Source of the DNA: a virus | Direction: 5' to 3' (one strand) | DNA: 64,000 nt | Virus record (IMG/VR): IMGVR_UViG_3300042385_001265 | Span: 104,636 to 168,635 of that record | Shown here: one piece after another, positions 14,662 through 57,643 of the stretch | How positions within the stretch are numbered: the first letter of the stretch is position 1 | Layout: each line of letters opens with the position of its first letter | Translations under genes and position numbers: made by a program | Notes under the pieces: generated by a model | Told to the model about the DNA's origin: nothing | What the model saw: only the letters and a program-made list of their open reading frames with translations | Database searches by the model: none

Positions 14662-15041
14662 TGGCTAGATTAAAACCAAATATAGATATAGGTAGTATAA
14701 CTACAAAGAGGGATAGAGAATCTTTTCAAAATTTTGTGTTGGAAGTAATCAAAGATACGTTTATCTATGAGGCAACTCCAACATCAATTTCTTTAAATGG
14801 TGAACTATTTACTTTAAATTTGGATGATTTTAGATTTGTTTATGAAGATTTAATCGTTGCAGATTCCAAGGATTATTTAGATGTATATTTATACGGAGTG
14901 AAGCAAACAAACGATAGATATTCGGTAACATTTGATGATACTTCTATAACTATAACCTTTACTGAAAGTATAACAAGAGTTCCGGCTGACGTAGTTAGAA
15001 CTGATTTTGAAATTAAAGGTAAAATTACACAAATAGTATAA
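14661..15041 (+). CDS. small structural protein with a repeated beta module
   Basis: A 126-residue protein. Residues 1-70 contain a helix (RESFQNFVLEVIKDTFIYEA) and strands. Residues 70-126 (DVYLYGVKQTNDRYSVTF ... DFEIKGKITQI) share the V-x-V-x-G / Y / I-x-F / D-x-x-I-x-G pattern with the two preceding genes. This type of module is common in phage fibres and baseplates, where it may link proteins end to end. It is coupled to the 2772-aa gene by a TAATG overlap and may connect that giant protein to the virion. Confidence 0.55.
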   Translation: MARLKPNIDIGSITTKRDRESFQNFVLEVIKDTFIYEATPTSISLNGELFTLNLDDFRFVYEDLIVADSKDYLDVYLYGVKQTNDRYSVTFDDTSITITFTESITRVPADVVRTDFEIKGKITQIV

Positions 15042-37598: not shown

Positions 37599-37608
37599 TA
37601 TATTTATA
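37599..37608 (+). promoter_or_regulatory. putative late promoter of the second giant-fibre operon
   Basis: An exact TATATTTATA box, 26 nt before the ATG at 37635 and after the stop at 37583. A TTTG directly precedes it, without the 20-nt spacing of host-type promoters. Confidence 0.6.
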
Positions 37609-41300: not shown

Positions 41301-44300
41301 ACTTATCATCTTTACGTTTTACTGATAATAATGATTGGGATTATAATAGTTGGGCAGGATTAAAATTCATAAACGCATCTAAGAGAATTGTATTGGGTGT
41401 AGGGGGTAATGTTTTTACAGCAAACTCAGCACAAACTGGTAACTTATTGTTGGATAGAATTGATACAATGTATTTATTCGATACAACTTATTATTTAAAC
41501 ACCGGTACTTCAAACTTAAACTCATTAACATTAGCTGGTAATTTAGTAGCAGCTCAAGTTAATACTGGGCAAGGATTAACCGAAGTTCATTTGATGAACC
41601 AAAATGTTAGAACTACTGATAGTGTAACTTTTGCAAATATAACTGGTAATACAATTTATGTAGGTGGTGGCACTACATATTTTATTAATAATGATATATC
41701 TCGATTAAATTATATAAATGCTAATGCTTTCGCACAAGAGCAAGGTAGTGTATTAAAAATAACATATCCAAATGGAGGTACATTAAATAATAGTACATCA
41801 TCCGTAACTGGAGCAATAAAGATACGACTTCCTCAATCGTGGACAAACACTATGATGGAGTTAAAAGTTCGTATTTACAATTATAGTGGAGATACTTATT
41901 GGGAATACTCAATGGGTGGATATAATTATTCACCATCAACATCTTGGATTAATACAAATGCAAGTGTTGCTGGGGCAGCTGGGGCACCTGCATATACTGT
42001 TAGATTTGCACATGATGGTACTTATTGTACAATATTCATCGGTGAATTAGCAACAACTTGGTCATACCCTAAAATAGTTGTTACTGAGTTTATTGGTGGA
42101 CATTCAAACTTCGCTGTATCTCAATGGGATGGTGATTGGGCTCTATCATTTGAAACAACATCATTTGGTACTGTAACATCCACTAAAACTCCAACATTAA
42201 GAACTGGTAATTTTATAGCAGATGGTACAATAAGTGGTACATCGATAGATACTGGACAAGGTTCAACTGAAGTTCATTTAATGAACCAAAACATTCGTAC
42301 AACGGATGATGTTACTTTTTCTACGATAAGAGGTACTAATTTTAGAGCATCAAACGCGTATTACTTAGGTGAAAATAATTTTTATCTTAATTTAACAAAT
42401 GGTGGTTGGTATTCTAATGTAAGGATTGCATCTGAAGTAGATATGAGGGCACCTATATTCTATGATACGGATAATACTGCATATTATACAAATCCTGCTG
42501 GACTTTCTGTACTTAGCCATATCCAATTAGTAAATAACTGGGCTAACACTACTCCTAATGATGGTGCAATAAATATTAGAGGACAGTATCCATCTATGAC
42601 ATTTAGAAATACTATATCCAATAATATGTGGTTAAGACATATGGATGGTAGTGGTGATATACAACATTATTTTGCATCTGGCGTTGATAGTACTTCTTGG
42701 AGTATAAGACACTCAATGTTTACAAATGGTAGATTCTTCTCAGCTGAAAGCATGAGAACACCAATATTTTATGATTCAGATAATACCGCATACTATTTAG
42801 ATGCAGCTAGTACTTCAAATATAAATGAAATAGTATCAGTAAGAGGGCAGTTTAGAAAAGCACAAACAAACAACAATTATACTACCGCTGCTTTATGGAC
42901 TGAATCATATAGCACTACAACCACTGGTATTGCTTTTCACATTAGTGGTGTTGTTGGTAAGTATTTGGAAATGCGTACTGATGGTATTCTTTATTGGGAA
43001 AATGAAAAAGTTTGGACAGGTAGTACAGATGGTGCTGGTTCTGGATTAGATGCAGATTTATTAGATGGTCAACAAGGGACATATTATGACCATAGAATAT
43101 ATACTTCTACTGGAAATATTGCTGGTTCTTTTTTAGGAGGACATTATTCATCTGGGGGAACTGAAAAACCTAACTCAGCTACATTCGGAGCTGGTAAGTT
43201 AAAGGTAGCCATGCTTAGTAACGGAAACCTTGGATTTGGTGGAAGTTGGAATGATGTTCTATGGATGTCAACTTATAATGGTGGTGATGTTAAACAAAGT
43301 TACGCAATTGTTGGAGATAAGTATGGTGATAACCTATGGTTCTCAAGACAAGCATTTGATTCTGCAACTTGGGGTACTGGTAGAAGATTGTGGCATAGTG
43401 GGGATACTACCATATCAACAACAGGTGATATGCGTTCTCCAATTTTCTATGATTCGGATGATACAACATATAGAATTGATGGAAATAGTACATCTGTTCT
43501 TAATAACTTAAATATTGCTGGAACTCTTACTGTAAATGGTACAATAAATTTAGGTAATGATTTCCAAATCGGTGATTATAAATATTTTGGAATCAATAAC
43601 TTAGGTGCATCTGCAACTCAAGCTAGAAGATTTGAAGTTGCACGAATTGGTATTGATTTTAATGATTGGAACTCTGTTGGTTTATTTGAAGTTGAACTTT
43701 CGGAAAATTACTACGATAAAGGTTTAAGAAAAAGATATATAGTTTCTTATGGATATGTTTCTGCAGCATCAGTTCAATTAGTTGAAGCAAATGGTATAGG
43801 TTCAAATCACTTCCAAGTAACTATTGGTTCTGAAGTAGTTGTAAGTGGTGACCATAGATACATTCCTGTATATGTTGATGTTAGATATTACTCATCAGTT
43901 GATGCTCTTATTAGAACTACACGAAGTATTACTACCAATACAAATAGTGCAATTGGTGCGGTTTATATTAACACATCACCTTCTGCAACTAACATTTCCG
44001 ATTTTACGGCAGATAGTATTGTATATCCAACTTCAGGTCAATTCGGTATTGCTGCACCAACATTCTACGATTCGGATAATACATCATATTATATAGACCC
44101 ATCTAATGGAGCAAATGGAATTTCTGCTAATTTACAGGGTAGAATTCAAGTTGGTACATTTAATAATTCTCAAACTAATACTGGTGAGGCTTGGATTGGT
44201 AGAGCATCTGATAGAGCAGCCGGTGTATTAACTGTACAATTAGGTGGTGGTGCAGGTAGATATTTAGAAGTAGTAGATAATGCTTGGACTACTGTTGAGT

Positions 44301-47300
44301 TTAGTGTAAATGATAGTGGTGTTGCTACTGCAGCAGCAAGTTTTAGAGCACCTATATTCTATGATTCGAATAATACATCATATTATTTAGACCCTACATC
44401 AACAACATCGTTAAGAACTGTTGGTAGTTGGAGAAGTGATTCATCTACATGGGATGGTGAATTTAGTGGTAAGATTCAATATCATTCTAATAATTGGTAT
44501 TTCCAAGCTGCTGGAGACTGGATTTGGAGAAATTCAGGTGGTAGTAACGTAATTTATGGTAACCAAAGTGGTGAATTGACTGCAACTGGGAACATGCGTT
44601 CACCTATATTCTACGATTCTGATAATACTGGGTATTATACAAATCCAGCAGGAACATCTCGTATGAATGGAATTGCATTTGATGCAGCATCGCCTGTATA
44701 TAGTGTAACCGCTGGAACATCATATCAACAACATTTTCAAATTAGAGAAGCAGGTGCTAGTGGTGCAAATGGTTCGGCCATTGCATACGCACCATCAATT
44801 GGTTTCCATTGGAGTGGTGTAGTTGCATCCAATATTACAATGGAAGCAAGTGGTAGAATTTCAATAAGAAATAATCCGGGTACATCATATGAAAATTTGG
44901 TTGCTAACAATATGTACGCATATGCATTCTATGATGAAAATAATACTGGATATTACTTAGACCCTGCATCTACTTCTGTACTAAACGCAATTAGATTGGG
45001 TACATCTGCAAATAATTCTACATTATCTGGAGCTGGTGATTGGGGTGTTAGATTTACTACAGACGTTGGATACATACAAATAGGACCTGCAAATAGTTCA
45101 TATGCTCATATCTATACGGATAGAGGTAATTTCTATATGAACGTAAATGACCTTTATCTAAATGGAAACCTTGTACCCGCATTTGGATATAATAGAGGTA
45201 GTGGTAACTTATTTGCAGCAATTTATTATGATGCAAATAATACTAATTATTATATAGATGGAGCATCAACATCAAACCTAAATGATTTACAAACTGCGGG
45301 AAGAGTTGTAATTGGTGGTAACTTTAGTAATAACGCATACAATTCAGTAGGTTCTGCTAGATTACATTTTGGAGGAGGTAACTCTGATGCAAATGATAAC
45401 TATTACATAGGTACTAATATAGAAGGTTATGGTGGTTCATATACTAAATTAGATTTAAGATGGCATACTGGTATCCGTATGGGTGCACAACCTGGATATG
45501 GTGGTATTCGTTTTTATGATACTGAAGATTTAGGTACGCTTATATTCTCAATTGGTACTGGTGATGCACATGTTAGGGTAACTAATAATTTATATGTAAA
45601 TGGATACACTTATTTAGGAAATGGTAACGCTGATGAAACTCATATTAATGATACTTTAAGAGTTGGTGCAACCGATAGTGGTGATTCTCATTTCTATTTT
45701 GGAGAAGATTCATCATCTTGGTATGGTGACCATTGGTATTGGGATTCTGGATATAATGTTTATAGATATAGTAGATTCGCTGGAACTGATTCCCTAATTC
45801 ACTACCATGATACGAGAGATACTACTAGAATTACATATGCTAGAAATATTGTATTTGATGATTTCGGAAAAGGTATAGTTGGTAACTATTCAGCAGAGAG
45901 ATTACAATTGGTATTTGCTATGGGTGATTCATACAAACCAAATACGGCAGGTACATCAACGGCAAATATGTATGGTATTGGTTGGTCACATCCAAACGCA
46001 GGTGGATTAGGTGGAGCTAATAATCTTAATGACCACGGTTTATTGATTATCAATAATGGTACATTTAGAGCAGCAATTTCATCTAGAATTGTGGCATCTG
46101 AAGAAGTAAGAGGTACATTATTTAGAGATTACAATGATAGTGGGTATTATTTAGACCCTAATACAACTGGAATTTCTTTAAGAATAGGTGGAACTGTTCA
46201 TTCAGGTGGAGCATTTAGTAGTGATGGTTATTCATCATCATCACCAAACGTTGTGACACGAATAACTGCACCACAAGGAGCAGCATTTTCATCAGATGGT
46301 TCTACTGGAGCTATTAGAATTAAATTACCATTTAGGGGAAATAACCCTATGTGGACTATGAAGGTTCGAATTTATAATTACTCTACTAACCAAACATCAG
46401 AATATCTATTAGGTAATTATGCTTATGACCAAGGTGGTTATAACTCATCTGCTACTTTTATAGGTGGAGCAAGTGCAACTGCACATACTGTAAGATTTGG
46501 TAATCAGGACGGAGTTGATTGTGTTTGGATAGGTGAAACAAATACTGGATGGAGTTATCCGGTAGTTAGTGTTATTGATTTTACATCTGGATTTAGAAGT
46601 TCAAACGCTGATTCACAATCTAGAAATTGGAATATAGCAGTAGTAACATCATTTGGTACAGTCCAAACTGCAATAACGCCTGAAATTAGATTATCTAATA
46701 CATACGCTCCTACATTTAGAGCTGATACGGATATGAGGGCACCAATTTATTATGATACCAACACTGCGTATTATATAAATGGTGATGGTGCATCAAACCT
46801 AAATACTCTACAAACTTATTCATATCAAGGTAATGGTAACGTAGGTGGAACTGGAAACGCATCTTGGCATCCATCTGGTATCTATTCAGCTGGTTATAAC
46901 TGGTTGTATGGTGGTATCAATATGAATGGTGGCACATTAGATGGAGCAGGTCCAATTTATGGTACTATATATTATGATAGAAATGATTCAGGATATTATG
47001 CAGACCCTGCATCAACATCTAATTTTTATAATTTAAATTTAACTGGAGCTAAACATACCTACCTTACTATAAACCCTGGTAACGGATGGGAAGCAATGGT
47101 TCGTTATATTGGTGGTAGTGGTAGTAGTTGGTATGTTGGTAAACGTACATCAACTCAATTGTTAGGTAGTACTGATGCATTCCATATGTATTCTGAAACT
47201 GCCGGTAGAACAGTTGGTGGATATGATACTGCTGGTAATCATTACGCATATGGTTCATCAAGAGCTACTATATTCTATGATATAGATGATACTACATATT

Positions 47301-50095
47301 ATATGAACCCCAATAGTAACACTTACTTATATGGTACATTTCAAGTAAATGGTGGACATGGGGATTCTCAAATTGGAGTTAGATTATTGTCTGGAAACAA
47401 TGGTGCTGGTGCAGGTGAAATTAATTTAAGAATGTGGGTATCTGAACCTGGTGTAACGTGGAACTGGGGTGGATTTGGATATAACGTAACTAATAATAAT
47501 GGTTCACCAAACGGATTTGGTAGAATAAATACCGCACACGGACAGGCATATATGAGATTTAGTGATGGTGGTGATTTGTATTTCTATAATACAAATACAT
47601 CTGGTACTAGAGTTACTAATATGGAAATGTATCCAAATAATACCGTATTATTTAACAACTACGCTACGGGTGGTAACTCATTAAGAGCACCAATATTTTA
47701 TGATTCGGATAATACGGGATACTATGGTGATTTTGCATCAACATCTCGTATAAACGCTATTAATTATGATAATTTATATTGGGCGGGAGATACGAGTTAT
47801 GGTTTCATTGGTAGAAACGTATATGCTGATACTGTAAATGGTAGAGGTAGTGACCCGTTAGAATTAAACTATTATGATGGTGGTGATGTTTACATTGGAC
47901 CTGGTGGTGGTAATAAAAATTTAAGAGCTAATCTTTACTATGATTATGCAAATACTGCATATTATTTAGACCCTAATGGAACTGCTAGATTATCATATGT
48001 AGTAGCAAATGGTGGTATCCGAATTGATGGAAATGAAAACCTTTACTTAGATAACAACTATGGACAATCAATTGTAGGTGTTTATACATCTGTTAGATAT
48101 CAGGGTATATTTGCAATGGGTAATGCATATAAATTAGCAATTGATGGTACTGGTACTGGTAACTTATATGGATTATCTTGGTCACATCCTAATGCTGGAG
48201 GACAAGCTGGATTCTTAAATGACCACGGTTTATTGGTAATGAACTATGGTACAACTTTTGCGGCAATATCATCACGTGGTTGGTTCAGAACTTCAGTTCA
48301 GGCACCTATATTCTATGATAATGATGATACTGGATACTATGGTAATTATGCAGGTGATAGAAGCACCAGCGTTAATGGATTTACCGCAAGAACAGTAGAA
48401 GGAACCAAAGGAACATGGAAATACAATATCCCAAGATTTATTCATACGGGCGACTCTAATTATTGGGTTGGAAGTATGGGTTGGGGTACAACTGACTTCA
48501 ACACTATGATGACATGGGGTAGTGGATTCATTGATTCTTGGTCAAACCCATCAAATCAACCATCTGGTACTTCACATTGGGTAGGTACTCAAGCATATCA
48601 CTACACCAATGCATACAATAGTGCATATGGTTGGCAGTTGGTAGGTGGTCCAATTGGAAATTTACGATTCCGTCAATCTTGGCCAAATGCTGGTACTTGG
48701 AGAACTGTACCTATGCTTGATGTGAATGATGGAAATAGTGGAGCAATGTATGCTGGAATTTATTATGATTCGGCTGATAGTGCATATTATGCAGACCCAG
48801 CATCAACATCTCGTTTAAATATAACTAAGACTGCATTAAAAGCTCATAATGATATGAGTGGTTATGGAGAAGGAAACTGGGTTTCAGATTTCAATCGAAC
48901 TCCAATAAGTTCATTTACGTTTGGTGAAGATAAATATAATGGTGGTCCATCTGGAACTTGGTGGTTCCAGGTAAATATGAGACATGCAAACTCAAGTAAC
49001 TATTGGGGAACTCAATTGGCATATGGATGGGAAGATAATGCAAATGAAATTTATCAAAGAAATATTACCGGAGGAAGTTTCAGCGGATGGGTTAGATATC
49101 TAAATTCAAACAACTATTCTGGTTATTCAAATTTCGGAACAGGTACAGTTTATGGTGGTATATATTACGATGGTAATAACTCTGGATACTATGGTGATTT
49201 TGCATCAACATCTCGTTTCAATACAACCATAACTGATACAACATACTTCGGTTCAGATACTAATAAAGGTAGAGCACAGGGATATGGTACTTGGTCAAAT
49301 TCATTCCATAAAACGGCATACATGTCATTTGACTGGAACGCGAATTATGACACTTATTCAAATCATGGTATCGCATCTACTGATTTAAATGGTTCGTTTA
49401 GTGATTCGATGAGTATTAACTCATTTAATGATATCAACTTAAGATTAGATTCAAATGATAATAATGCAAACTCATATGTAAGAATACATGATAATACTAC
49501 TGGCCAGTCAGTTTCCGTAGCATATATCGGACGAGAGAGTGGTAACCCTATTGCATATTTCAATAATAGAGTATATGGTAACGTATATTACCACAACAGT
49601 GATACTGCATATTATTTGGCTCCGAATGGTACTTCCAGATTGAATAGAACAAACTATGATTATGTTTATTCTTATAACTGGGTTTACGCACAGGGTGATG
49701 TTATTGCATACTACTCTGATGAAAGATTAAAAACTAAAGTTGGTTCTATTGAAAACGCTTTAGATAAAATCTCTAAATTGAATGGATTCTATTATGTTGA
49801 AAATGATTTAGCAAAATCATTCGGATACAAAAACGAAAAAAGACAATTAGGTTTATCAGCACAAGAAGTACAAGAAGTTTTACCTGAAATTGTGACATTA
49901 GCACCATTTGATACGGAAACTGATAAAAATAATAATATTGTAGGTTCCAAATCTGGAGAAGATTACTTAACTGTAAACTACGCTAAAGTAGTTCCTCTTT
50001 TAGTTGAAGGTATTAAAGAACAAACCGAAATAATCAATTCTCAGCAAAAACAAATTGATGAATTAAAAGAAATGATTAAATCTTTGATAAAATAA
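38312..50095 (+). CDS. giant 3927-aa tail fibre with S74 autochaperone domain
   Basis: Residues 1-290 contain GDGSNLTKI/GDGSNITNI modules. Residues 293-817 are proline-free collagen-like Gly-Thr/Ser-Ser repeats. A distinct domain (LTGTTDNGVITLNGTAPNAT ... AGIEVKRG) follows. Then come three TGQGxTEVHLMNQN repeats and 18 copies of the motif PIFYDSDNTxYYLDPxxTS, spaced by receptor-like beta domains, to about residue 3780. The C terminus is a Peptidase_S74-type intramolecular chaperone: Y-S-D-E-R-L-K with candidate cleavage serine S3802 (codon 49715-49717), then GLSAQEVQEVLPE, YLTVNYAKVVPLLVEGI and a terminal coiled coil. Such domains drive trimer folding and then cut themselves off. It is probably the main host-binding long fibre. 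Confidence 0.85.
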   Translation: MKYAGKNPNGINQVSQSLLSVDVNGVQQLTVSTASLDINTKLSVTNGVLASSYTGSAFSGSKFVGSQFSGSFSGSFSGDGSNLTKIPFEGLTADAQSKIQSGDGTARISNNKLSINVNTDITGSLLTTGTVSASFLAGDGSNITNISAASIGDINRLKSGSATATISPNKGLEVNVGIVTEKYLGVSGSAQIAGNLNVDGTTTLKSLNVAGTITATELKTTYISSSIIFSSGSNKFGDQSSDTHEFTGSLRVKDTIQIPSYTSNPVSGKVGEIYYNTSDTNIYRWTGLIWEPAAGTAGTSGTSGTSGTSGTSGTSGTSGTSGSSGSSGASGSSGSSGSSGSSGTSGTSGTSGSGGTSGSGGSSGTSGSSGTRGTSGSSGTSGTSGTSGSSGSSGSSGTSGTSGTSGTSGSSGSSGFGSSGTSGSGGTSGTSGTRGTSGSSGTSGSSGTSGSSGISGSSGTSATSGSGGTSATSGSSGSSGSSGTSGSSGSSGTSGTSGTRGTSGTSGTSGTSGISGSSGSSGSSGTSGTSGISGSSGSSGSSGSSGTSGTSGTRGTSGTSGIDGVVGDGGTSGSSGSSGSSGTSGSSGSSGTSGTSGSSGTNSTAGTGGTSGSSGSSGSSGTSGTSGTSGSSGTSGSSGSSGTSGSSGSSGTSGTSGTSGINGLIGSSGTGGTAGTGGTSGSSGSSGTSGTSGTSGTSGTSGTSGTRGTAGSGGSSGSSGSSGTSGTSGTSGSSGSSGTSGTSGSSGTSGTSGSSGTSGTRGTAGSGGSSGTSGSSGTSGSSGTSGSSGSSGTSGTSGTSGTSGTSGSSGTSGSSGVLALTGTTDNGVITLNGTAPNATVESNLRFDGTTLAVTGNATISGDLTVSGTTTYINTTTLNVGDNIITLNADIGAATAPTENAGIEVKRGNAATKQFYWNESTDRWYADSDLQSAGNLYGTQIDTGQGLTEVHLMNQNVRTSDTITFARLNLTTTGNDYYFAANGLTMTSISTGETIWRNLSSLRFTDNNDWDYNSWAGLKFINASKRIVLGVGGNVFTANSAQTGNLLLDRIDTMYLFDTTYYLNTGTSNLNSLTLAGNLVAAQVNTGQGLTEVHLMNQNVRTTDSVTFANITGNTIYVGGGTTYFINNDISRLNYINANAFAQEQGSVLKITYPNGGTLNNSTSSVTGAIKIRLPQSWTNTMMELKVRIYNYSGDTYWEYSMGGYNYSPSTSWINTNASVAGAAGAPAYTVRFAHDGTYCTIFIGELATTWSYPKIVVTEFIGGHSNFAVSQWDGDWALSFETTSFGTVTSTKTPTLRTGNFIADGTISGTSIDTGQGSTEVHLMNQNIRTTDDVTFSTIRGTNFRASNAYYLGENNFYLNLTNGGWYSNVRIASEVDMRAPIFYDTDNTAYYTNPAGLSVLSHIQLVNNWANTTPNDGAINIRGQYPSMTFRNTISNNMWLRHMDGSGDIQHYFASGVDSTSWSIRHSMFTNGRFFSAESMRTPIFYDSDNTAYYLDAASTSNINEIVSVRGQFRKAQTNNNYTTAALWTESYSTTTTGIAFHISGVVGKYLEMRTDGILYWENEKVWTGSTDGAGSGLDADLLDGQQGTYYDHRIYTSTGNIAGSFLGGHYSSGGTEKPNSATFGAGKLKVAMLSNGNLGFGGSWNDVLWMSTYNGGDVKQSYAIVGDKYGDNLWFSRQAFDSATWGTGRRLWHSGDTTISTTGDMRSPIFYDSDDTTYRIDGNSTSVLNNLNIAGTLTVNGTINLGNDFQIGDYKYFGINNLGASATQARRFEVARIGIDFNDWNSVGLFEVELSENYYDKGLRKRYIVSYGYVSAASVQLVEANGIGSNHFQVTIGSEVVVSGDHRYIPVYVDVRYYSSVDALIRTTRSITTNTNSAIGAVYINTSPSATNISDFTADSIVYPTSGQFGIAAPTFYDSDNTSYYIDPSNGANGISANLQGRIQVGTFNNSQTNTGEAWIGRASDRAAGVLTVQLGGGAGRYLEVVDNAWTTVEFSVNDSGVATAAASFRAPIFYDSNNTSYYLDPTSTTSLRTVGSWRSDSSTWDGEFSGKIQYHSNNWYFQAAGDWIWRNSGGSNVIYGNQSGELTATGNMRSPIFYDSDNTGYYTNPAGTSRMNGIAFDAASPVYSVTAGTSYQQHFQIREAGASGANGSAIAYAPSIGFHWSGVVASNITMEASGRISIRNNPGTSYENLVANNMYAYAFYDENNTGYYLDPASTSVLNAIRLGTSANNSTLSGAGDWGVRFTTDVGYIQIGPANSSYAHIYTDRGNFYMNVNDLYLNGNLVPAFGYNRGSGNLFAAIYYDANNTNYYIDGASTSNLNDLQTAGRVVIGGNFSNNAYNSVGSARLHFGGGNSDANDNYYIGTNIEGYGGSYTKLDLRWHTGIRMGAQPGYGGIRFYDTEDLGTLIFSIGTGDAHVRVTNNLYVNGYTYLGNGNADETHINDTLRVGATDSGDSHFYFGEDSSSWYGDHWYWDSGYNVYRYSRFAGTDSLIHYHDTRDTTRITYARNIVFDDFGKGIVGNYSAERLQLVFAMGDSYKPNTAGTSTANMYGIGWSHPNAGGLGGANNLNDHGLLIINNGTFRAAISSRIVASEEVRGTLFRDYNDSGYYLDPNTTGISLRIGGTVHSGGAFSSDGYSSSSPNVVTRITAPQGAAFSSDGSTGAIRIKLPFRGNNPMWTMKVRIYNYSTNQTSEYLLGNYAYDQGGYNSSATFIGGASATAHTVRFGNQDGVDCVWIGETNTGWSYPVVSVIDFTSGFRSSNADSQSRNWNIAVVTSFGTVQTAITPEIRLSNTYAPTFRADTDMRAPIYYDTNTAYYINGDGASNLNTLQTYSYQGNGNVGGTGNASWHPSGIYSAGYNWLYGGINMNGGTLDGAGPIYGTIYYDRNDSGYYADPASTSNFYNLNLTGAKHTYLTINPGNGWEAMVRYIGGSGSSWYVGKRTSTQLLGSTDAFHMYSETAGRTVGGYDTAGNHYAYGSSRATIFYDIDDTTYYMNPNSNTYLYGTFQVNGGHGDSQIGVRLLSGNNGAGAGEINLRMWVSEPGVTWNWGGFGYNVTNNNGSPNGFGRINTAHGQAYMRFSDGGDLYFYNTNTSGTRVTNMEMYPNNTVLFNNYATGGNSLRAPIFYDSDNTGYYGDFASTSRINAINYDNLYWAGDTSYGFIGRNVYADTVNGRGSDPLELNYYDGGDVYIGPGGGNKNLRANLYYDYANTAYYLDPNGTARLSYVVANGGIRIDGNENLYLDNNYGQSIVGVYTSVRYQGIFAMGNAYKLAIDGTGTGNLYGLSWSHPNAGGQAGFLNDHGLLVMNYGTTFAAISSRGWFRTSVQAPIFYDNDDTGYYGNYAGDRSTSVNGFTARTVEGTKGTWKYNIPRFIHTGDSNYWVGSMGWGTTDFNTMMTWGSGFIDSWSNPSNQPSGTSHWVGTQAYHYTNAYNSAYGWQLVGGPIGNLRFRQSWPNAGTWRTVPMLDVNDGNSGAMYAGIYYDSADSAYYADPASTSRLNITKTALKAHNDMSGYGEGNWVSDFNRTPISSFTFGEDKYNGGPSGTWWFQVNMRHANSSNYWGTQLAYGWEDNANEIYQRNITGGSFSGWVRYLNSNNYSGYSNFGTGTVYGGIYYDGNNSGYYGDFASTSRFNTTITDTTYFGSDTNKGRAQGYGTWSNSFHKTAYMSFDWNANYDTYSNHGIASTDLNGSFSDSMSINSFNDINLRLDSNDNNANSYVRIHDNTTGQSVSVAYIGRESGNPIAYFNNRVYGNVYYHNSDTAYYLAPNGTSRLNRTNYDYVYSYNWVYAQGDVIAYYSDERLKTKVGSIENALDKISKLNGFYYVENDLAKSFGYKNEKRQLGLSAQEVQEVLPEIVTLAPFDTETDKNNNIVGSKSGEDYLTVNYAKVVPLLVEGIKEQTEIINSQQKQIDELKEMIKSLIK
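39187..40763 (+). repeat. collagen-like repeat block of the second giant fibre
   Basis: About 525 residues of GTSG/GSSG triplets with occasional GSGG, GTRG, GTGG and GISG variants. There is no proline. Serine codons switch between TCN and AGY. Confidence 0.88.
42441..49645 (+). repeat. 18 copies of the FYDSDNTxYYLDP module
   Basis: Motif PIFYDSDNTAYYLDPxxTSxLN and variants (YGGIYYDGNNSGYYGDFAST, YGNVYYHNSDTAYYLAPNGT) recur at irregular distances between longer beta domains. These are probably short junction elements between successive fibre domains. Confidence 0.8.
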
Positions 50096-50222: not shown

Positions 50223-52559
50223 ATGGCAGAAAGAATTGTATCACCCGGAGTATTCACAAGAGAAAACGATTTATCGTTCTTGGCTCAGGGTATCGGAGAA
50301 ATTGGAGCAGCGTTTATAGGACCTTTCAAACAAGGACCTGCGTTTGTTCCCACAATCGTAAGAACACAATCAGAATTCGAAAACATTTTCGGAACACCTG
50401 ATGGAACATACTACACAGAGTATGCGGTTCAAAACTATTTAAGAGAAGCAGGTACTGTGACTGTTGTAAGGGTAATGGATACCGGAGGATATACACAAGC
50501 TACACCAATTGGTTTAGTTGCTAGTGGTTCTGCTGGTAAGAAATTAATCTCTACTATTCACTCAACCAACAATGGTGATGCTGAAGTAGGATTTGGTCCA
50601 TTTACTGTAACACCATCATTAACTATATCTGGTTCATTTGTAGTTTCTGGTTCTGGTATTGGTTTTGTATCATCATCTTTAGTTCCATCGGCAACTAATG
50701 ATGTAAGTGATGTATTTGGTGAATCACCATTTGGTTCAAAAGATGGATATGTTTATTCATACTTTGAAAATGAAGCATCTGCATTTAATTACAATACAAG
50801 CAATCCTGCTGGAGCAGTTGTAGCAATTGCATTACCATCTCAAGTATTTGGTGGTACTGATTTAGGATTAGGAGCACCTTCGCAAGCTGGAGCATCTCCT
50901 GCACAAACTCCTTATGTAAAATCACAACTTATTTCTGGTGAGAGATATGAATTATTCCGTTTCCATACATTAGGATATGGTAACAACGAAAACACAAGAT
51001 TTAAAATCGGTATTTCTAATGTGAAAGCAGCTGGTGAAGATGGAGCAACTGATTACTCTACATTCTCTGTATCTGTAAGAGCATACAATGATACTGATAA
51101 GAGAAAATCAGTATTAGAAACATTTAACAACGTAAACTTAGACCCTGCATCTCCTAACTTTATAGCTAGAGTAATTGGTGATAGATTTATGACAATTGAT
51201 TCAACTGGTAAAATTACTGAATATGGTGATTGGTTGAATAACTCAAAATATATTAGAGTAGAAGTTAAAGAGCAAGGTTCATACCCTGTATCAGCAGCAC
51301 CATTTGGACATGGAGCTTATACTAATCCAATTGAAACAACAACAACAACACAGGCCGAATGGATACCTGCTGTTGTTTTCCAAACTGGTTCAGTAGATAA
51401 TACTGCTGGTTCACCAATTTATTTTGCTGGTTTTGATTTCGAAACAATTGGTATTAAATTAGATAACGCTAATTATTTGGCACCATTACCAACTACTAAA
51501 ATTGGAGCAAACGTAGATTTCGGATTTGATTCTCAACTTACTTATGTAATGAGTGGTTCTGATTCAACTGATATGGCTAAGAGACAATTTATATTAGGTT
51601 TCCAAGGTGGATTTAACGGACAATCTCCGGCAACTCCAATTAACTTAGGAACGGCAATATCAGCAGCTAACTCACAGGGATTTGATTTATCAACTTCTGT
51701 AGCTAGTGGATATGAGGCATACTCTAAAGCAATCAACGCAATTTCAAACGCTGATGAATATGATATCAATATGGTTGTAACTCCGGGTGTTATTAGAAGA
51801 TTACACACTCCGGTTACTACTAAAGTAATTGATATGGTTGAAGCTAGACAAGATTGTTTCTACATCGCTGATTTTAACGCAGCACCTGATACAATAGCAC
51901 AAGCTACTACTCAGGCAGCAGCAGTTGATTCAAACTACGCTGGTACTTACTACCCTTGGGTTAAGATGGTTGATTCAAACACTAACAAATTAATAAGTGT
52001 TCCACCATCAGTATTGTTACCTGCTGTGTACGCATCAAATGACGCTATTGCGGCTGAATGGTTCGCACCTGCTGGTTTGAATAGAGGAGGAATCGTAGGA
52101 GCTGTTTCAGTTCTTAATAGATTAACACATTCTGAAAGAGATACTTTATATGAAAACAAAGTAAACCCAATCGCTTCTTTCCCTGGGCAAGGTATTGTAG
52201 CATTTGGACAAAAAACGTTGCAAGATAAAGCATCAGCATTGGATAGAATCAACGTAAGAAGATTATTGATTACCGTTAAAAAGTATATCGCATCTACTTC
52301 TAGATTCTTAGTGTTCGAACAAAATACCGCAGCAACTCGTGGTAGATTTATCAACACTGTACAACCTTACTTAGAAGGAATTCAACAAAGACAAGGTTTA
52401 TACGCATTCAAAGTAGTTATGGATGAATCTAACAACACACCTGATGTAGTAGATAGAAACATTTTAGCAGGACAGATATTCTTACAACCAGCAAAAACTG
52501 CTGAATTTATTGTAATTGATTTCAATATCTTACCTACTGGAGCAAGTTTCTCAGCATAA
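50223..52559 (+). CDS. gp18: tail sheath protein, T4 gp18-like
   Basis: A 778-residue contractile tail sheath protein (T4 gp18 has 659). The N terminus, SPGVFTRENDLSFLAQGIGE followed by IGAAFIGPFKQGPAFVPTIV and VVRVMDTGG, is the conserved sheath start with its embracing strand. Residues 100-470 are variable, surface-type domains with SGS-rich segments. The C-terminal third (NRLTHSERDTLYENKVNPIA, FGQKTL, DRINVRRLLITVKKYIASTS, RFLVFEQN, GQIFLQPAKTAEFIVIDFNI) is the conserved core domain. The tube gene follows, as in T4. The larger size suggests decorated outer domains. Confidence 0.93.
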   Translation: MAERIVSPGVFTRENDLSFLAQGIGEIGAAFIGPFKQGPAFVPTIVRTQSEFENIFGTPDGTYYTEYAVQNYLREAGTVTVVRVMDTGGYTQATPIGLVASGSAGKKLISTIHSTNNGDAEVGFGPFTVTPSLTISGSFVVSGSGIGFVSSSLVPSATNDVSDVFGESPFGSKDGYVYSYFENEASAFNYNTSNPAGAVVAIALPSQVFGGTDLGLGAPSQAGASPAQTPYVKSQLISGERYELFRFHTLGYGNNENTRFKIGISNVKAAGEDGATDYSTFSVSVRAYNDTDKRKSVLETFNNVNLDPASPNFIARVIGDRFMTIDSTGKITEYGDWLNNSKYIRVEVKEQGSYPVSAAPFGHGAYTNPIETTTTTQAEWIPAVVFQTGSVDNTAGSPIYFAGFDFETIGIKLDNANYLAPLPTTKIGANVDFGFDSQLTYVMSGSDSTDMAKRQFILGFQGGFNGQSPATPINLGTAISAANSQGFDLSTSVASGYEAYSKAINAISNADEYDINMVVTPGVIRRLHTPVTTKVIDMVEARQDCFYIADFNAAPDTIAQATTQAAAVDSNYAGTYYPWVKMVDSNTNKLISVPPSVLLPAVYASNDAIAAEWFAPAGLNRGGIVGAVSVLNRLTHSERDTLYENKVNPIASFPGQGIVAFGQKTLQDKASALDRINVRRLLITVKKYIASTSRFLVFEQNTAATRGRFINTVQPYLEGIQQRQGLYAFKVVMDESNNTPDVVDRNILAGQIFLQPAKTAEFIVIDFNILPTGASFSA

Positions 52560-52611: not shown

Positions 52612-53100
52612 ATGGCAGAAGTATTAGAATTTTCACAAATGATGTTTACCAACTTCGAACCGAAGATGAAGAACCGCTATATTATGGAGATTGACGGAAT
52701 TCAATCTTACTTAATAAAATCAGCGGCTAGACCATCTATCACTTTCGAACCGGTTAAACTAGACCATATCAACACTTATCGCAAATTGCAAGGTAAGGGA
52801 GAATGGCAGGACATTACAATAACATTGTATGACCCAATCGTTCCATCTGGAGCACAACAAGTAATGGAATGGGTTCGTTTAGGATATGAATCGTTAACTG
52901 GTAGAAAAGGTTACGCCGATTTCTATAAAAAGGACATCGATTTCTATATGCTAGGGCCTGTTGGTGATAAAATCGAACAATGGAAGTTAAAAGGAGCATT
53001 TATTGTATCTGCTAACTTCGGAGATTTATCATTTGATTCAAACGATGCAGCTGATATCGAATTGACATTGGCTTATGATTACGCAATTTTAGAATTCTAA
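52612..53100 (+). CDS. gp19: tail tube protein, T4 gp19-like
   Basis: A 162-residue protein, equal in size to T4 gp19 (163 aa). It has the tube-fold pattern: KNRYIMEIDGIQSYLIKSAA, RPSITFEPVKLDHINTYRKL, GEWQDITITLYDPIVPSGAQ, then FYMLGPVGDKIEQWKLKGAF and IELTLAYDYAILEF. It forms the stacked hexameric rings through which DNA passes. It directly follows the sheath gene and ends at a strong terminator. Confidence 0.92.
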   Translation: MAEVLEFSQMMFTNFEPKMKNRYIMEIDGIQSYLIKSAARPSITFEPVKLDHINTYRKLQGKGEWQDITITLYDPIVPSGAQQVMEWVRLGYESLTGRKGYADFYKKDIDFYMLGPVGDKIEQWKLKGAFIVSANFGDLSFDSNDAADIELTLAYDYAILEF

Positions 53101-53126: not shown

Positions 53127-53162
53127 AGAGAGGTTCTTTTATTAAGAATCTCTCTTTTTTTT
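53127..53162 (+). terminator. strong intrinsic terminator after the tube gene
   Basis: A 12-bp stem (AGAGAGGTTCTT 53127-53138, AAGAATCTCTCT 53144-53155, one G-T pair) has a TTATT loop and a T run to 53162. Confidence 0.92.
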
Positions 53163-53179: not shown

Positions 53180-53189
53180 TATATTTATA
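53180..53189 (+). promoter_or_regulatory. putative late promoter of the gp26-like baseplate gene
   Basis: An exact TATATTTATA box inside a longer dyad GTATATA-TT-TATATAC (53178-53193), 22 nt before the ATG at 53212 and 17 nt after the terminator. Confidence 0.6.
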
Positions 53190-53211: not shown

Positions 53212-53985
53212 ATGAGCAATACTAAATTCGATTTCCCAACGGAAATTATTGATTTACCATCAAAGGGGTTAGTGTATCCCGAAAAACACCCATTAAGAAA
53301 GGGTAACATTGAAATCAAATACATGACAGCTAGAGAAGAAGATATCCTTGCATCACAAACTTTAATTAAAAAAGGTGTGGTATTGGATAAATTATTCGAA
53401 TCTATTGTTGTTGAAGAAGGTGTTAATATCAACGATGTATTTATTGGAGATAAAAACGCAATTTTAATGGCAACAAGAGTATTAGGTTATGGGGCTGATT
53501 ATACTGTTGAAATTACTGACCCATTTACATTGGAAAAACAATCAGTAACAATTGATTTATCTAAGGTGAAAACTAAAGATGTTAATGAATCTCTATTAAA
53601 TGGTGAAAATAGATATAAATTCAAATTACCAAAATCAGGTAAAGAGTTGGTATTTAAATTACTAACACACGGTGATGAAACTGAAATTACAAAAGAAATT
53701 CAAGCATTAGAAAGATTATATAAAGGAAAGGGAGAAAAAACATTTGATGTTACTACTCGTTTGAAATATATGATACAATCTGTTGATGGAAATGAAGATA
53801 AAGGGTTTGTTACAAGCTGGATTCAAAATGGATTCCTTGCATTGGATACTAAGGCATTTAGAAAATATGTTAAGGAGTTAAGTCCGGATATGGATTTAAA
53901 ATTTGATTTCACATCAGATGTAACAGGCGAAACGGAGGCGCTAGATATCCCATTTGGGATAAACTTTTTTTACCCTACCGAGTGA
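53212..53985 (+). CDS. gp26: baseplate assembly protein, T4 gp26-like (T4_baseplate family)
   Basis: A 257-residue protein with the T4_baseplate family pattern: EIIDLPSKGLVYPEKHPLRK, IEIKYMTAREEDILASQTLI, IFIGDKN-type segment VFIGDKNAILMATRVLGYGA, then YTVEITDPF, and KFKLPKSGKELVFKLLTHGD. Members act in baseplate hub assembly, probably as chaperones, and stand where tail assembly chaperones stand in other phages. Its 3' end overlaps a second coding frame that continues for 67 codons after a T7 run, so a frameshifted longer product is likely. It lies directly before a 64-aa protein and the tape measure gene. Confidence 0.8.
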   Translation: MSNTKFDFPTEIIDLPSKGLVYPEKHPLRKGNIEIKYMTAREEDILASQTLIKKGVVLDKLFESIVVEEGVNINDVFIGDKNAILMATRVLGYGADYTVEITDPFTLEKQSVTIDLSKVKTKDVNESLLNGENRYKFKLPKSGKELVFKLLTHGDETEITKEIQALERLYKGKGEKTFDVTTRLKYMIQSVDGNEDKGFVTSWIQNGFLALDTKAFRKYVKELSPDMDLKFDFTSDVTGETEALDIPFGINFFYPTE

Positions 53986-54178
53986 TTATAGTATTCAACT
54001 CCATACTCAAATTTGGGAGTTGGTTAATTATGGTAATGGATTCAGCTGGAATGATGTGTATTTCATGCCATCACAATGGAGAAAATTCTATTTTAACAAA
54101 TTAATTGAGTTAAAAAAGAAAGAATCCGAAGAACATAAAAAAGCACAACAACAATCGAAAGTGAGGATTAAAAGATAA
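53963..54178 (+). CDS. +1-frame extension of the gp26-like gene, no ATG start: candidate programmed frameshift product
   Basis: From 53975 to the TAA at 54176 the +1 frame encodes 67 codons with protein-like content: LPSDYSIQLHTQIWELVNYG, NGFSWNDVYFMPSQWRKFYF, then a charged KLIELKKKESEEHKK tail. The frame is open only from 53963 because of a TAA at 53960-53962, and it has no ATG until an internal one (54065 region). Expression therefore needs a frameshift from the gp26-like frame before its TGA at 53983-53985, or reinitiation. A T7 run (53965-53971) allows a Phe tRNA to slip +1 on TTT, and a 7-bp stem-loop (CAACTCC 53996-54002, GGAGTTG 54016-54022) follows. Long and short products would resemble tail assembly chaperone pairs. 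Confidence 0.65.
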   Translation, partial: TFFTLPSDYSIQLHTQIWELVNYGNGFSWNDVYFMPSQWRKFYFNKLIELKKKESEEHKKAQQQSKVRIKR

Positions 54179-54193
54179 TCCTCACTTTTTTTT
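54161..54193 (+). terminator. strong intrinsic terminator
   Basis: A perfect 10-bp stem (GTGAGGATTA 54161-54170, TAATCCTCAC 54176-54185) has an AAAGA loop and an 8-T run. Its stem includes the stop codon of the +1-frame ORF, which supports that frame being the true end of the unit. Confidence 0.93.
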
Positions 54194-54232: not shown

Positions 54233-54427
54233 ATGGGAAAGAAAAATTTAAACGAAGGTTCAATTGTTGGATTCATAAATCGTTTTTTAGATGACCTTCA
54301 AAAGGGTACTCAAGACAGGTTTATACAACAAGCCAAAAAGAAAGGAGTTCCTACTCACGTTACTGCCAGATTAACAACCATTGAAAAAGAAATCAAAGAG
54401 TTAGAGAAAATTCTTAAGGATTTATAA
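54233..54427 (+). CDS. small helical protein upstream of the tape measure
   Basis: A 64-residue basic protein. A helical N-terminal half (GSIVGFINRFLDDLQKGTQD) is followed by basic residues (QQAKKKGVP) and a C-terminal coiled coil (LTTIEKEIKELEKILKDL). I recall similar small proteins in other T4-like aquatic phages, but the function is not known. It could be a chaperone or a small baseplate part, as it lies 6 nt before the tape measure gene. Confidence 0.6.
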   Translation: MGKKNLNEGSIVGFINRFLDDLQKGTQDRFIQQAKKKGVPTHVTARLTTIEKEIKELEKILKDL

Positions 54428-54433
54428 TAAATT

Positions 54434-57400
54434 ATGGCAGATAGCAACAGTCTACTTAAAGAAAGAGTTGAGATACTAAAACAAATTAAGCAAATTCAGC
54501 TTGAGCAGGGAAAAGATGCCGCTAAGTTGGATGAAACTTATATTAAATTAAAAAGTAGATTAGAGGGAATAGTAGGTACTTTAAAGACATTTGTTGATAA
54601 TCAAAATAAAACAGTACAGGGTGCTGTTACATTAGAGCAAGAAGCTAAATCGTTGGGTACAATATACTCAGCTGTTTCTAATGAAATGCGAACTCAAGCG
54701 ATATTACAAAGAGATATAGCAACTAGTGTATCAGACCAATTAGCAAGAGGTAGTGAAATTTCTGAAAGAAATAAAACATCATCTGATATTGTAACTGATA
54801 TATTATCACAATATAACGAACAATCATCGATAGCAAAAGAGTTAGCTCAACTAACCGCTGATGATATTGTTCAAAAAGCTGAATTAGAAGATAAATTAAA
54901 TTCAATTAGTGACCAAATTCAAGAGCAAGTTAATGCATTGGATAAGAGAACTAATGTAGCTAAACAATTTCTAAGTATTCAAGGGCAAATAGAAGCATCC
55001 ATTGAATCTCAGGTTGTAGCTGCAAGGGATATGGCATCTCTAACACAAGAACAAAAAGATATATTAGAAGAACAGGCAACTGCGTTTGATGCTATAAAGA
55101 AAAAAATAGGAGCATTAGGTTCAACCTTAACAACATTTTTACTAAGACCTCAAGCAGCTATTGGAGCATTAGTAATTGCAACTGGTGCGTTCGCCAATAA
55201 ATTTGGTGATATGAATAAAGAGTTGGGGCAATCATTCTCACAAGGATTGAACTCTTCAACTACATCCGCAACTGCATTAGGATTTATATTTGAAGATACT
55301 GCTAGTACTGTAAAATCATTAGCATCTGAATTCGGAGATGTATCTGCTGCAACATTCCAAACACAAGCTAATGTTGGGTTAATAGCTGCTAATATGGGTA
55401 TAACAAATACCGAAGCAGTTGGATTAATGGGTTCATTTGCAAGGTTGAATGGTGGTTCAACCGAAATAGCAGCAAATATGATTAAAACCACTCAGGAGTT
55501 TGCAAACCAAAATGGAATTATACCTGCCGATTTAATGGCAGATTTAGCTGGTTCAGCTGAAGAGTTTGCATTATTTGGAAAAGATGGTGGTAAAAATATA
55601 TTACAAGCAGCAGGATACGCTAAGAAATTAGGTGTAAATATGAGTACCATTAGTGGTGTTGCTGATAACCTATTGGATTTCGAATCATCTATTACTAAGG
55701 AATTAGAATTAGGTGCAATGCTTGGTAAAGATATCAACTTAGATAGAGCTAGAGCATTAGCATATGAAGGTGATATGCAAGGTGCAATGAATGAAACCTT
55801 AAGTGCATTAGGTGGTATTGAAGCATTCAACAAAATGGATTACTTCCAAAAGAAAGCATCCGCTGATTTATTAGGAGTTTCGGTTGCAGAATTGGAAAAA
55901 ATGGCTACAAACCAAGAGAATGCCAATACAATGGGTGCTGCTGTAAATGAAACGTTTAGTGCTATGGGGGAAACCCTTAACATGGGATTAAATAAATATT
56001 TAGGTACTGGATTAGAGGGGCTTGGTGGGATGATTACAATGAGTGGTCAACTTGGCCAAGGGTTTAAATCATTGGGCATCGATATGGGTGGTATAGTTAC
56101 TAAATCAGCTGATTTCTTAAAGAACTTAGTTAAGATGGGTGCACAAAAAGTAGCTGGTTTATTTGGTGGGGGTGCTACTGATGCTGTTGCTGGTGGAGCT
56201 AAAGATAAACTTTTAGCTGGTGTTGGTGATAAAGCAAAAAGTATAAAAACACCGGATACCGATGCTGGGGATAAGATGGGTAAAATGGGTAAGGGTATTA
56301 AGGCAAATGATTTAATTAAAGGAGCCGCAGCTATGTTAATTATGGCAGCCGCATTATATGTAGCAGCTAAAGCATTCCAAGAATTTGCAACTGTTAAGTG
56401 GGAAGATGTTGGAAAGGGTTTAGTTGGGGTAGCTGGTTTGGCCGCAATTGCTTATGTATTAGGAAAAGCACAAGGTGATATGATAAAAGGAGCATTGGCA
56501 GTAGCAATATTAGGATTAGCATTAGTACCATTTGCATACGCAATGAGTTTAATAAGTGGATTGGACATTGGTTCAGTAATAGCAGCTGGAGCTGGTTTAG
56601 TAATATTTGGAGCAGCTGCATTCGCATTAGGTTCATTAATGATGACTGGTGCAGGAGCATTTATATTTGGAGCTGGTTTATTAGCATTAGCTGGATTAGG
56701 AATTGCAATGATGACATTGGGTGCTGGTTTATTAGTTGCCGCAGCTGGATTTAACGCAATTGGTGGTTCTATGGGAAGTGTAATATCATCAATATCACAA
56801 ATCGGAGATGTATTGGCTGGTATATTCGCATTTGTAGGACCAATGGCTATGTTATCACTTTCATTGGGGGTACTATCATTCGCATTGATAGGATTTGGTA
56901 TGGCTGGTTTAATAGCCGCACCTGGTTTACTTCTTGTGGGAGCTGGTATAATGATGGTTGGTGCTGGATTAACACTAATATCAACTGCACTTACTACATT
57001 AAGTGGTGGATTAGGAAGTGTGTTAGGAATACTTCCACAAATAGGAAGTGTATTGAGTGGAATGTTTGAATATGCTGGACCGATTGCTATGTTATCACTT
57101 TCATTAGGTACATTATCGTTAGCATTGATGGGATTCGGATTAGCCGGTTTAATTGCCGCACCTGGTTTACTTCTTGTGGGAGCTGGTATAATGTTGGTTG
57201 GTACTGGATTAAGTTTAATAACTACTTCACTAGCTACATTAGGTGGTGGATTGACAAGTGTTATAACGGCAATGTCAACGGTTGGTAGTGTTATTGGAGA
57301 AATGTTCCAATACATTGCACCAATAGCCGCTCTATCTCTTGCGTTAGTAGGATTAGCTGGAGCATTGACTTTAGTAGGTGTAGCTGGTATAGCTGCATTG

Positions 57401-57643
57401 CCTGGTTTAATGGCTGTAGCTGCTGTTGGAGCAATAGCAGTTGGTGTTGGTTCAATGTTAGGAATGGGTGGTGGAGAAGGAGCCGGTGCTGAAGGTGGTG
57501 ATACCGCATTATTAGATGAAATTAAAGGTTTAAGAGCTGACCTTAGTTCTGGTAAGGTTGGTGTTTATATGGATGGAACAAAAGTATCAGCCGCAATTGG
57601 TAGAGTGGTAAATAAGGTAGGAAGTAATTCATACGCAATATAA
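54434..57643 (+). CDS. tail length tape measure protein
   Basis: A 1069-residue protein, the longest in the tail-core block and placed between the tail chaperone and baseplate genes. Residues 1-230 are a coiled coil (LKERVEILKQIKQIQLEQGK). Residues 230-570 are mixed helical with Gly and Ala. Residues 625-1010 consist of many hydrophobic Gly/Ala-rich segments, with an 80-residue repeat (SLSLGxLSxALxGFG, LIAAPGLLLVGAGIM) in about three copies. Hydrophobic C-terminal parts in tape measures may reach the host membrane on ejection. By the usual rule of about 0.15 nm per residue the tail would be near 160 nm (inference). A 39-nt exact direct repeat lies in this region. Confidence 0.82.
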   Translation: MADSNSLLKERVEILKQIKQIQLEQGKDAAKLDETYIKLKSRLEGIVGTLKTFVDNQNKTVQGAVTLEQEAKSLGTIYSAVSNEMRTQAILQRDIATSVSDQLARGSEISERNKTSSDIVTDILSQYNEQSSIAKELAQLTADDIVQKAELEDKLNSISDQIQEQVNALDKRTNVAKQFLSIQGQIEASIESQVVAARDMASLTQEQKDILEEQATAFDAIKKKIGALGSTLTTFLLRPQAAIGALVIATGAFANKFGDMNKELGQSFSQGLNSSTTSATALGFIFEDTASTVKSLASEFGDVSAATFQTQANVGLIAANMGITNTEAVGLMGSFARLNGGSTEIAANMIKTTQEFANQNGIIPADLMADLAGSAEEFALFGKDGGKNILQAAGYAKKLGVNMSTISGVADNLLDFESSITKELELGAMLGKDINLDRARALAYEGDMQGAMNETLSALGGIEAFNKMDYFQKKASADLLGVSVAELEKMATNQENANTMGAAVNETFSAMGETLNMGLNKYLGTGLEGLGGMITMSGQLGQGFKSLGIDMGGIVTKSADFLKNLVKMGAQKVAGLFGGGATDAVAGGAKDKLLAGVGDKAKSIKTPDTDAGDKMGKMGKGIKANDLIKGAAAMLIMAAALYVAAKAFQEFATVKWEDVGKGLVGVAGLAAIAYVLGKAQGDMIKGALAVAILGLALVPFAYAMSLISGLDIGSVIAAGAGLVIFGAAAFALGSLMMTGAGAFIFGAGLLALAGLGIAMMTLGAGLLVAAAGFNAIGGSMGSVISSISQIGDVLAGIFAFVGPMAMLSLSLGVLSFALIGFGMAGLIAAPGLLLVGAGIMMVGAGLTLISTALTTLSGGLGSVLGILPQIGSVLSGMFEYAGPIAMLSLSLGTLSLALMGFGLAGLIAAPGLLLVGAGIMLVGTGLSLITTSLATLGGGLTSVITAMSTVGSVIGEMFQYIAPIAALSLALVGLAGALTLVGVAGIAALPGLMAVAAVGAIAVGVGSMLGMGGGEGAGAEGGDTALLDEIKGLRADLSSGKVGVYMDGTKVSAAIGRVVNKVGSNSYAI
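56839..57193 (+). repeat. 240-bp (80-codon) direct repeat inside the tape measure gene
   Basis: The 39 nt at 56915-56953 and 57155-57193 are identical, and further matches such as gctatgttatcactttcatt keep the exact 240-nt offset. Confidence 0.85.

Follow-up and report, generated by a model that had tools for sequence, protein, structure and literature searches.

In phage lambda, genes G and GT provide a short and a frameshifted long form of a tail chaperone just before the tape measure gene, with a role in tape measure loading according to a review. Among T4-like phages, Vladimirov is said to have reported in 2022 that frameshifting of such chaperones is conserved in several groups, reportedly with a gp26-type N-terminal part (TAC-N) and a gp51-type C domain, T4 itself using two genes. 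Tail assembly chaperones (TACs) of T4-like phages, frameshifting in some, were described by Vladimirov, Gautam and Davidson (2022, Virology 566:9) as cited in PMC12846349 and PMC10885494, and citing text gives -1 poly-T signals for them. A 2016 review, in its accessible portions (PMC5009743), has tailed phages using -1, -2 or +1 shifts for the chaperone ratio, the haloarchaeal myovirus HSTV-2 being a very likely +1 case. Frameshifting in an E. coli 70S system was raised in the +1 and lowered in the -1 direction by a hairpin lying next to the E site, the +1 effect requiring the absence of RF2 (PMC6321510, in the sections available).

Here we describe a locus of a bacterial virus at which one gene probably gives rise to two versions of a tail helper protein by a +1 slip at a run of T, with the apparent aid of a small hairpin immediately 5' of it. 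Since frameshifted T4-like TACs were described in 2022, the core finding is a member of a published kind, and the novelty that a preliminary description of this DNA had claimed for a T4-like gp26 family member does not hold; its analogy with lambda G/GT is supported, lambda shifting -1 and this locus probably +1. Compared with the T4-like TACs, for which citing text gives -1 poly-T signals, the locus shows +1 with a 5' hairpin, and T4 genes 26 and 51, with which it shares the PF12322 family and a match to the gp51 C-terminus, are two separate genes on opposite strands. HSTV-2 resembles it in its very likely +1 direction and differs in its archaeal host (PMC5009743, accessible part). As proposed here, the locus resembles bacterial prfB (RF2) in that a tRNA in the P site moves one base forward on a U-rich codon, but prfB has a stop codon in the A site and a Shine-Dalgarno (SD) duplex, where this locus has a sense codon and a hairpin; the site of one relative, Flavobacterium phage immuto, reads CUU UGG C against CUU UGA C of prfB. 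The hairpin of Huang, Cho and Chang (2018, accessible text) has the same place by the shift site, in designed reporters there and in a natural arrangement here.

The window, i.e. the whole 64-kb stretch of DNA analysed, was taken from a virus record of 168,635 bases. Its tail region is ordered as sheath, tube, gp26-like gene, +1-frame ORF, 64-aa ORF and tape measure, all on the + strand. The tail sheath protein (50223..52559; PF04984, E 3.6e-16) precedes a tail tube protein of the gp19 family (52612..53100; PF06841, E 1.9e-9) with 48% identity to an annotated tail completion protein of immuto. The gp26-like PF12322 protein of 257 aa (TAC-N; 53212..53985) is encoded in the zero frame and is followed by the +1-frame tail (TAC-C; 53972..54178, 68 codons after the proposed slip plus TAA), by a 64-aa ORF beginning MGKK (54233..54427) and by a tape measure protein of 1069 aa (54434..57643), which was recognized by BLASTP to the annotated immuto tail tape measure (E 2e-17) and had no tape measure match in Pfam or PHROG. 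The place of the 64-aa ORF is taken by an ORF of 64-134 codons, varied in sequence, in 14 of 15 listed relatives, and in the fifteenth by the tape measure gene itself. Terminator-like stems on the + strand were found between the tube and TAC genes (53127..53155, 12 pairs) and across the stop codon of the tail (54157..54189, 14 pairs, then a T run). As the latter spans the tail's stop, the gp26-like gene and the tail may form one transcription unit, in line with the preliminary description, which had placed a terminator stem at the +1-frame stop and the tail within the transcript.

The element TATATTTATA lies 5' of TAC-N at 53180..53189 on the + strand, where it is a candidate promoter element. 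Six copies occur in the window, all on the + strand (11564, 14884, 37599, 50165, 53180 and 54199), compared with 1.5 expected, and as many were seen in 1 of 100 shuffles. Four of them stand at most 60 nt 5' of ORF starts (11603, 50223, 53212 and 54233), the copy at 37599 has an ATG nearby and that at 14884 is within an ORF. In 17 of 80 relatives it stands no more than 120 nt 5' of the gp26-like gene. TATATTTATA is possibly a phage promoter element. Adjoining the sheath gene is an ORF of 3927 aa (38312-50095) with long SGTSGTSGSSG repeat runs, perhaps a tail fibre protein. No tRNA genes were found in the 64-kb window.

The preliminary description had noted a +1-frame ORF that overlaps the end of the gp26-like gene without an ATG start, and had placed a shift on TTTTTTT between a +1-frame TAA and the zero-frame TGA. 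Our coordinates agree: the TAA is at 53960-53962, the run at 53965-53971 in register TTT TTT TAC, and the TGA at 53983-53985, while the +1 frame is open from 53963 to the TAA at 54176-54178 and contains no ATG, GTG or TTG before a TTG at 54020, its sole Met codon being the one in MPSQW. The preliminary description had also proposed aligning homologues and comparing substitution rates between frames, and both speak for its programmed +1 transition joining the gp26-like protein to the tail. Searching viral contigs with the upstream protein, we took the best 80 of 124 loci; in these and the window, TTTTTTTACCCT is kept in the same register in 81 of 81 sequences, the overlap is retained, and TTT TTT TAC CCT begins 15 or 18 nt 5' of the zero-frame stop. 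Altogether 78 of the 81 sequences extend to the tail stop, with a single tail length of 211 nt from the run and 33 distinct tails; at the other Phe codons of these genes TTT was counted 288 times and TTC 168 times. After the zero-frame stop, pN/pS of the 33 distinct tails is 0.160 in the +1 frame, close to the 0.156 of the upstream gene, compared with 1.42 and 1.53 in the other two frames, both of which contain stops in all 33, indicating that the tail evolves as a protein in the +1 frame only. From a search with the tail itself the best 80 of 238 loci were taken; the 41 loci examined were all +1 with the run unchanged, and most of the others were contigs of the upstream-protein search. The number of contigs ruled out a sequencing error as the origin of the overlap, and the invariant run, the fixed tail length and the pN/pS of the +1 frame ruled out a chance overlap.

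What the pair does is indicated by gene order and by homology. The gp26-like protein matches PF12322 (T4_baseplate) with 27.1 bits, above the curated cut-off of 24.5, and phrog_150, baseplate hub (E 7.6e-10). A profile of 21 +1 tails aligned by hhalign to nine C-termini of T4 gp51 and -1 type tails over 50 columns (probability 94.9, E 4.5e-8). Sequence searches of Pfam, PHROGs and PDB with the 21 tails did not name the tail; the window's own tail had no Pfam match and in PHROGs matched only phrog_5961 (E 0.083-0.089). Weak matches of the 21 tails were to PF20546 (DUF6760; four tails, best E 8e-4), itself of unassigned function and a possible relative of the tail, to phrog_634, baseplate hub assembly catalyst (two tails, best E 0.0065), and to phrog_20255, which has no named function (seven tails, best E 0.0043). 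A model of the fused protein, made with a one-base step at the run, reached a mean pLDDT of 93.1 and a pTM of 0.87, the added part being helical at residues 259-314. In fold searches with this model, predicted viral structures gave 62 matches at E<=0.001, several of them named T4-like baseplate hub or hub assembly proteins, and the PDB gave none at E<=0.001. The position is that of a TAC, with the tube gene at 52612, the TAC gene at 53212 and the tape measure gene at 54434, the 64-aa ORF lying between the last two, and the end of the short form carries a C-terminal extension in another frame that is conserved as protein. Together, gene order and homology to the gp51 C-terminus point to a tail assembly chaperone pair. 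In T4, gp26 and gp51 are listed as hub assembly chaperones (Table 2 of PMC3004832, seen in part); the same partial source has gp26 contained in the T4 hub by genetic evidence, which fits poorly with a role as chaperone only.

To place the site among its relatives, we surveyed the best 80 of 124 loci above, profile and protein searches of viral contigs (two of them taken at their best 80), bacterial and archaeal contigs (5 loci) and 8 named or deposited phages. The survey yielded 253 loci, 251 with the gene end and 192 distinct around the junction, the latter comprising 33 from the upstream-protein search, the 8 named phages and 151 others. A simple extension rule assigned 175 loci to +1, 11 to -1 and 6 to none; by inspection L216, L228 and L236 were set to +1, and L260 and L284 to -1 (heptamer in phase, -1 tail). 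In all, 182 of the 192 are of the +1 kind and 10 of the -1 kind. The site consists of a TTT or TTC codon, a TTT or CTT codon and a T-starting codon in 178 of the 192. The +1 tail spans no fewer than 45 codons in 173 of the 178, the other five ending at a contig edge (L038, L194, L246, L247 and L278). This set was chosen by its motif, excluding the ten heptamer loci and L083, L085, L087 and L088, and its uniformity is therefore partly by construction. The commonest +1 sites are TTT TTT TGG CCT (81 loci) and TTT TTT TAC CCT (75), and TTT TTT followed by a T-starting codon accounts for 171 of the 178 motif-selected loci. The four excluded +1 loci have other Phe-codon sites: TTT CTA in LR756508 (L083), TTC TTT CGT in Streptococcus phage GXN1 (L085), TTT TTT CAC in SP-15 (L087) and TTT TTT AGT in LIS04 (L088).

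In the 10 loci of the -1 kind, the heptamer T TTT TTC is in phase and the -1 tail is 51-65 codons long. They form a sister group (L086, L249-L252, L259, L260, L284, L328 and L330) that includes the 595-kb phage LR756511. T TTT TTC or T TTT TTT together with a tail in the -1 frame was seen in 12 of 15 further named phages, namely Bellamy, S-RIM8, KVP40, XacN1, Atu_ph07, PA5oct, 121Q, RaK2, Vibrio 2.275.O, RAS14, Bakedbeans and Phosso; a test for T TTT TTY in those 12, leaving out Slicko01, Cygsa01 and AM101, was positive in 12 of 12. The tail of Cygsa01 is in the -1 frame with no heptamer and an annotated start at the stop codon, and in AM101 genes 26 and 51 are separate, as in T4. The -1 heptamers of the 10 loci and the 12 named phages sit at Phe-Phe codons homologous to the +1 site, and related viruses thus appear to slip backward at the homologous spot. 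The window does not have the -1 poly-T arrangement (T TTT TTY with a -1 tail): its tail is in +1 and a C precedes the run.

We considered whether the tail is an independent small gene, reached from a start of its own by ribosomes that reinitiate once the zero-frame stop has been read. In KVP40, Bellamy, Cygsa01 and other -1 records the tail is given as a CDS of its own, and in 6 of the 12 named -1 phages a tail-frame ATG lies from 1 nt before to 26 nt after the first base of the stop codon; between the upstream stop of the frame and nine codons past the slip, an ATG occurs in 25 of 92 +1 representatives and a GTG or TTG in a further 31. Against such starts, ATG, GTG and TTG are all absent from the nine codons after the slip in 77 of the 92, a later start would lose the conserved first helix, and the window has none before the TTG at 54020. 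An independent start in the window is unlikely and we find this explanation hardly credible for the locus, although reinitiation may be at work in some of the -1 relatives. Two small annotated CDSs, at 3836-3946 of L082 (immuto) and 3755-3874 of L087 (Bacillus phage SP-15), are C-terminal parts of +1 tails and were called from internal ATGs.

Three features set the +1 sites apart from the -1 sites: the base before the run, the second Phe codon and the hairpin. A T stands directly 5' of the run in 3 of 92 +1 representatives compared with 43.4 expected from codon usage, although GAT outnumbers GAC (1302 to 479), and among the 178 loci T precedes the run in four, in each of which the run is interrupted. 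As a -1 heptamer needs a T in this position, its avoidance separates +1 from -1 sites. The second Phe codon is TTT in 176 and CTT in 2 of the 178 loci and TTC in none of the 182 +1 loci, whereas the first is TTC in 5 of the 178. A tRNA on the second codon could re-pair one base forward at each of the motif-picked 178 loci, on UUU U in 176 and on CUU U in 2.

These counts bear on the main rival, named as an alternative in the preliminary description, i.e. stem-loop-mediated transcriptional slippage, in which the polymerase would drop one U at the hairpin and U7 and the shortened mRNA would encode the long form. The loss of one base yields the +1 frame, a stem-loop is indeed 5' adjacent to the run (mostly 0-4 nt before T7), and the arrangement resembles a Roseiflexus IS cassette with a stem-loop 5' adjacent to T5C5, where a hairpin next to the run triggers slippage and transcripts lose one base (PMC5009743, in the part available). 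Moreover, T7 is more constant than Phe codon usage, and avoidance of an eighth 5' T could reflect run length. However, the run is interrupted in 7 of the 178 loci (5 TTCTTTT and 2 TTTCTTT) with the +1 tail retained, and three of the five TTC loci (L202, L276 and L316) keep the stem at the site. TTC as second codon would leave T5 and as first codon T4, yet it is the second-codon TTC that is never seen. In +1 relatives further away the site is TTT CTA or TTC TTT CGT, and a textbook ribosomal heptamer occupies the corresponding codons in the -1 relatives. The interrupted runs and the fixed second, not first, Phe codon thus favour the ribosome over the polymerase, and slippage in transcription strikes us as rather unlikely.

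The same interrupted sites bear on a ribosomal -2 shift, which would give the same frame with one extra Phe. U7 permits such a shift and phage Mu uses it (PMC5009743, accessible part), but by reasoning, uncomputed, it would mispair at TTC TTT TGG and TTT CTT TGG loci, where a +1 shift gives UUU on UUU or the prfB-like CUU to UUU; we judge -2 very unlikely.

The hairpin TATCCC-ATTT-GGGATA (53946..53961, + strand; listed as terminator-like) ends 3 nt 5' of the T run and is our proposed 5' stimulator. The 27 nt before the run fold with an MFE of -7.6 compared with -2.62 for the synonymous null (p 0.003). Over 92 representatives the mean of the 27 nt before the site is -6.09 kcal, compared with -3.33 for synonymous re-draws, and p<=0.05 was reached in 45% of them but in 5-11% in six control windows further upstream; with a null of own-gene codon usage, 39 of 92 reached p<=0.05. 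Re-drawing the codons of the 5' arm alone, with the G-rich arm fixed, cost 2.08 kcal (t -8.7), and re-drawing those of the 3' arm alone 1.75 kcal, while chimeras of two representatives averaged -4.37 compared with the native -6.09 (92 representatives). Because related sequences are not independent, we give counts after stricter thinning: with n of 67, 42 and 16, the last a set of very divergent representatives, the mean difference was -2.52, -2.79 and -2.98 (Wilcoxon p 7e-9, 2e-7 and 0.00043). In one clade with a fixed register, all four pairs were present in 58% of 31 sequences and in 2.4% on average in re-draws. Of the 69 representatives folding at -4 or better, 63 have a stem ending 0-4 nt before the first Phe codon. 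At -1 sites the hairpin excess is near zero, with mean differences of -0.20 (n 8) and -0.12 (n 12). The hairpin thus bears signs of constraint.

Covariation does not add to this. In one clade 81.5% of cells were paired compared with 80.6% in column shuffles, which is no excess; a pairing test specific to the IPFG group gave p 0.40; chimeras in the shuffle-tested clade were nearly as stable as native sequences (-5.37 and -5.95); and over the 92 representatives covariation was diffuse, the stem register differing between clades. More than half of the 92 are individually not significant, and the hairpin is lacking from some of the distant +1 phages, whose folds range from 0.0 kcal in GXN1 through the following values: -2.6 in RM378, -3.1 in immuto, -4.2 in LIS04, -5.1 in SP-15 and -10.3 in Mel-JY01. 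The case for the hairpin rests on the statistics of synonymous codon choice. The stem-loop that the preliminary description had seen 10 nt after the TGA is present in the window (53996-54002 / 54015-54022), but as a stimulator it was rejected, being not conserved: in 33 distinct tails 7/8 pairs are kept in 17, 6 in 2, 5 in 10 and 4 in 4, with an alifold consensus there of -5.5 only.

The G-rich 3' arm could itself act as an internal SD-like element driving a +1 ribosomal shift, the hairpin being a by-product of G's that face a conserved Pro codon. Its energy with the anti-SD is 1.22 kcal below the synonymous null (t -6.0), and an SD-dependent frameshift is retained in 523 of 726 prfB genes of Bacteroidia (PMC8710568, as far as available). 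Nevertheless, with the G-rich arm fixed, the 5' arm codons still favour pairing by the 2.08 kcal given above, and if the hosts are Bacteroidota, the anti-SD of the ribosome is occluded; the available part of PMC8710568 describes such occlusion for Bacteroidota-type ribosomes, in a class in which prfB frameshifting is yet common. Records of relatives suggest that many of these phages have Bacteroidota hosts: four are Flavobacterium records, and three of the five bacterial or archaeal contig loci are from Saprospiraceae, Winogradskyella and Flavobacteriales, the others being a Woesearchaeota bin and another bacterium. Mel-JY01 is recorded from Microcystis. We regard a shift driven by the G-rich arm alone as quite unlikely.

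We consider it likely that two chaperone forms are made by a ribosomal +1 slip that a hairpin aids in the manner of an internal SD. At TTT TTT TAC CCT (53965..53976, + strand), most ribosomes would continue to the TGA at 53983 and release TAC-N, while a fraction with tRNA-Phe on the second UUU of UUU UUU UAC would slip +1 (53968-53970 to 53969-53971), the tRNA re-pairing with the overlapping UUU; translation in the +1 frame would then produce TAC-NC of 321 residues, whose C-terminal domain would be the counterpart of the T4 gp51 end. The hairpin would refold behind the ribosome beside the E site, favouring +1 and opposing -1 as the SD duplex does in prfB. The E-site precedent, in which +1 goes up and -1 goes down, fits the hairpin contrast between +1 and -1 sites.

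A broader reading is that a natural hairpin replaces the internal SD and, together with two codon rules (no T before the run; the second Phe UUU, not UUC, then U), fixes +1 on a Phe-Phe site that homologues use for -1, so that a two-way switch would have been flipped during the evolution of one gene pair; on this reading, codon rules included, we are evenly divided. Our literature search, with most subscription papers beyond its reach, found neither a +1 TAC frameshift in T4-like phages nor a natural upstream hairpin at a phage +1 site, both weak negatives. The split between +1 and -1 among homologues, the avoidance of T and the upstream hairpin at +1 sites, none of which the preliminary description had noted, are new as far as we searched.

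The assembly of tails is governed by the short and long chaperones. The annotation records examined either lack the long form or begin its C-terminal part at the wrong codon, and this affects at least hundreds of environmental contigs, the viral-contig searches having returned at least 600 stretches. If true, the mechanism would be a natural counterpart of the laboratory result in which an upstream hairpin mimics the SD duplex, and the gene pair would offer a comparative system in which homologous sites shift in opposite directions under simple codon rules. A further consequence would be an account of how a +1 shift could be driven by phages whose bacterial hosts make little use of SD pairing.
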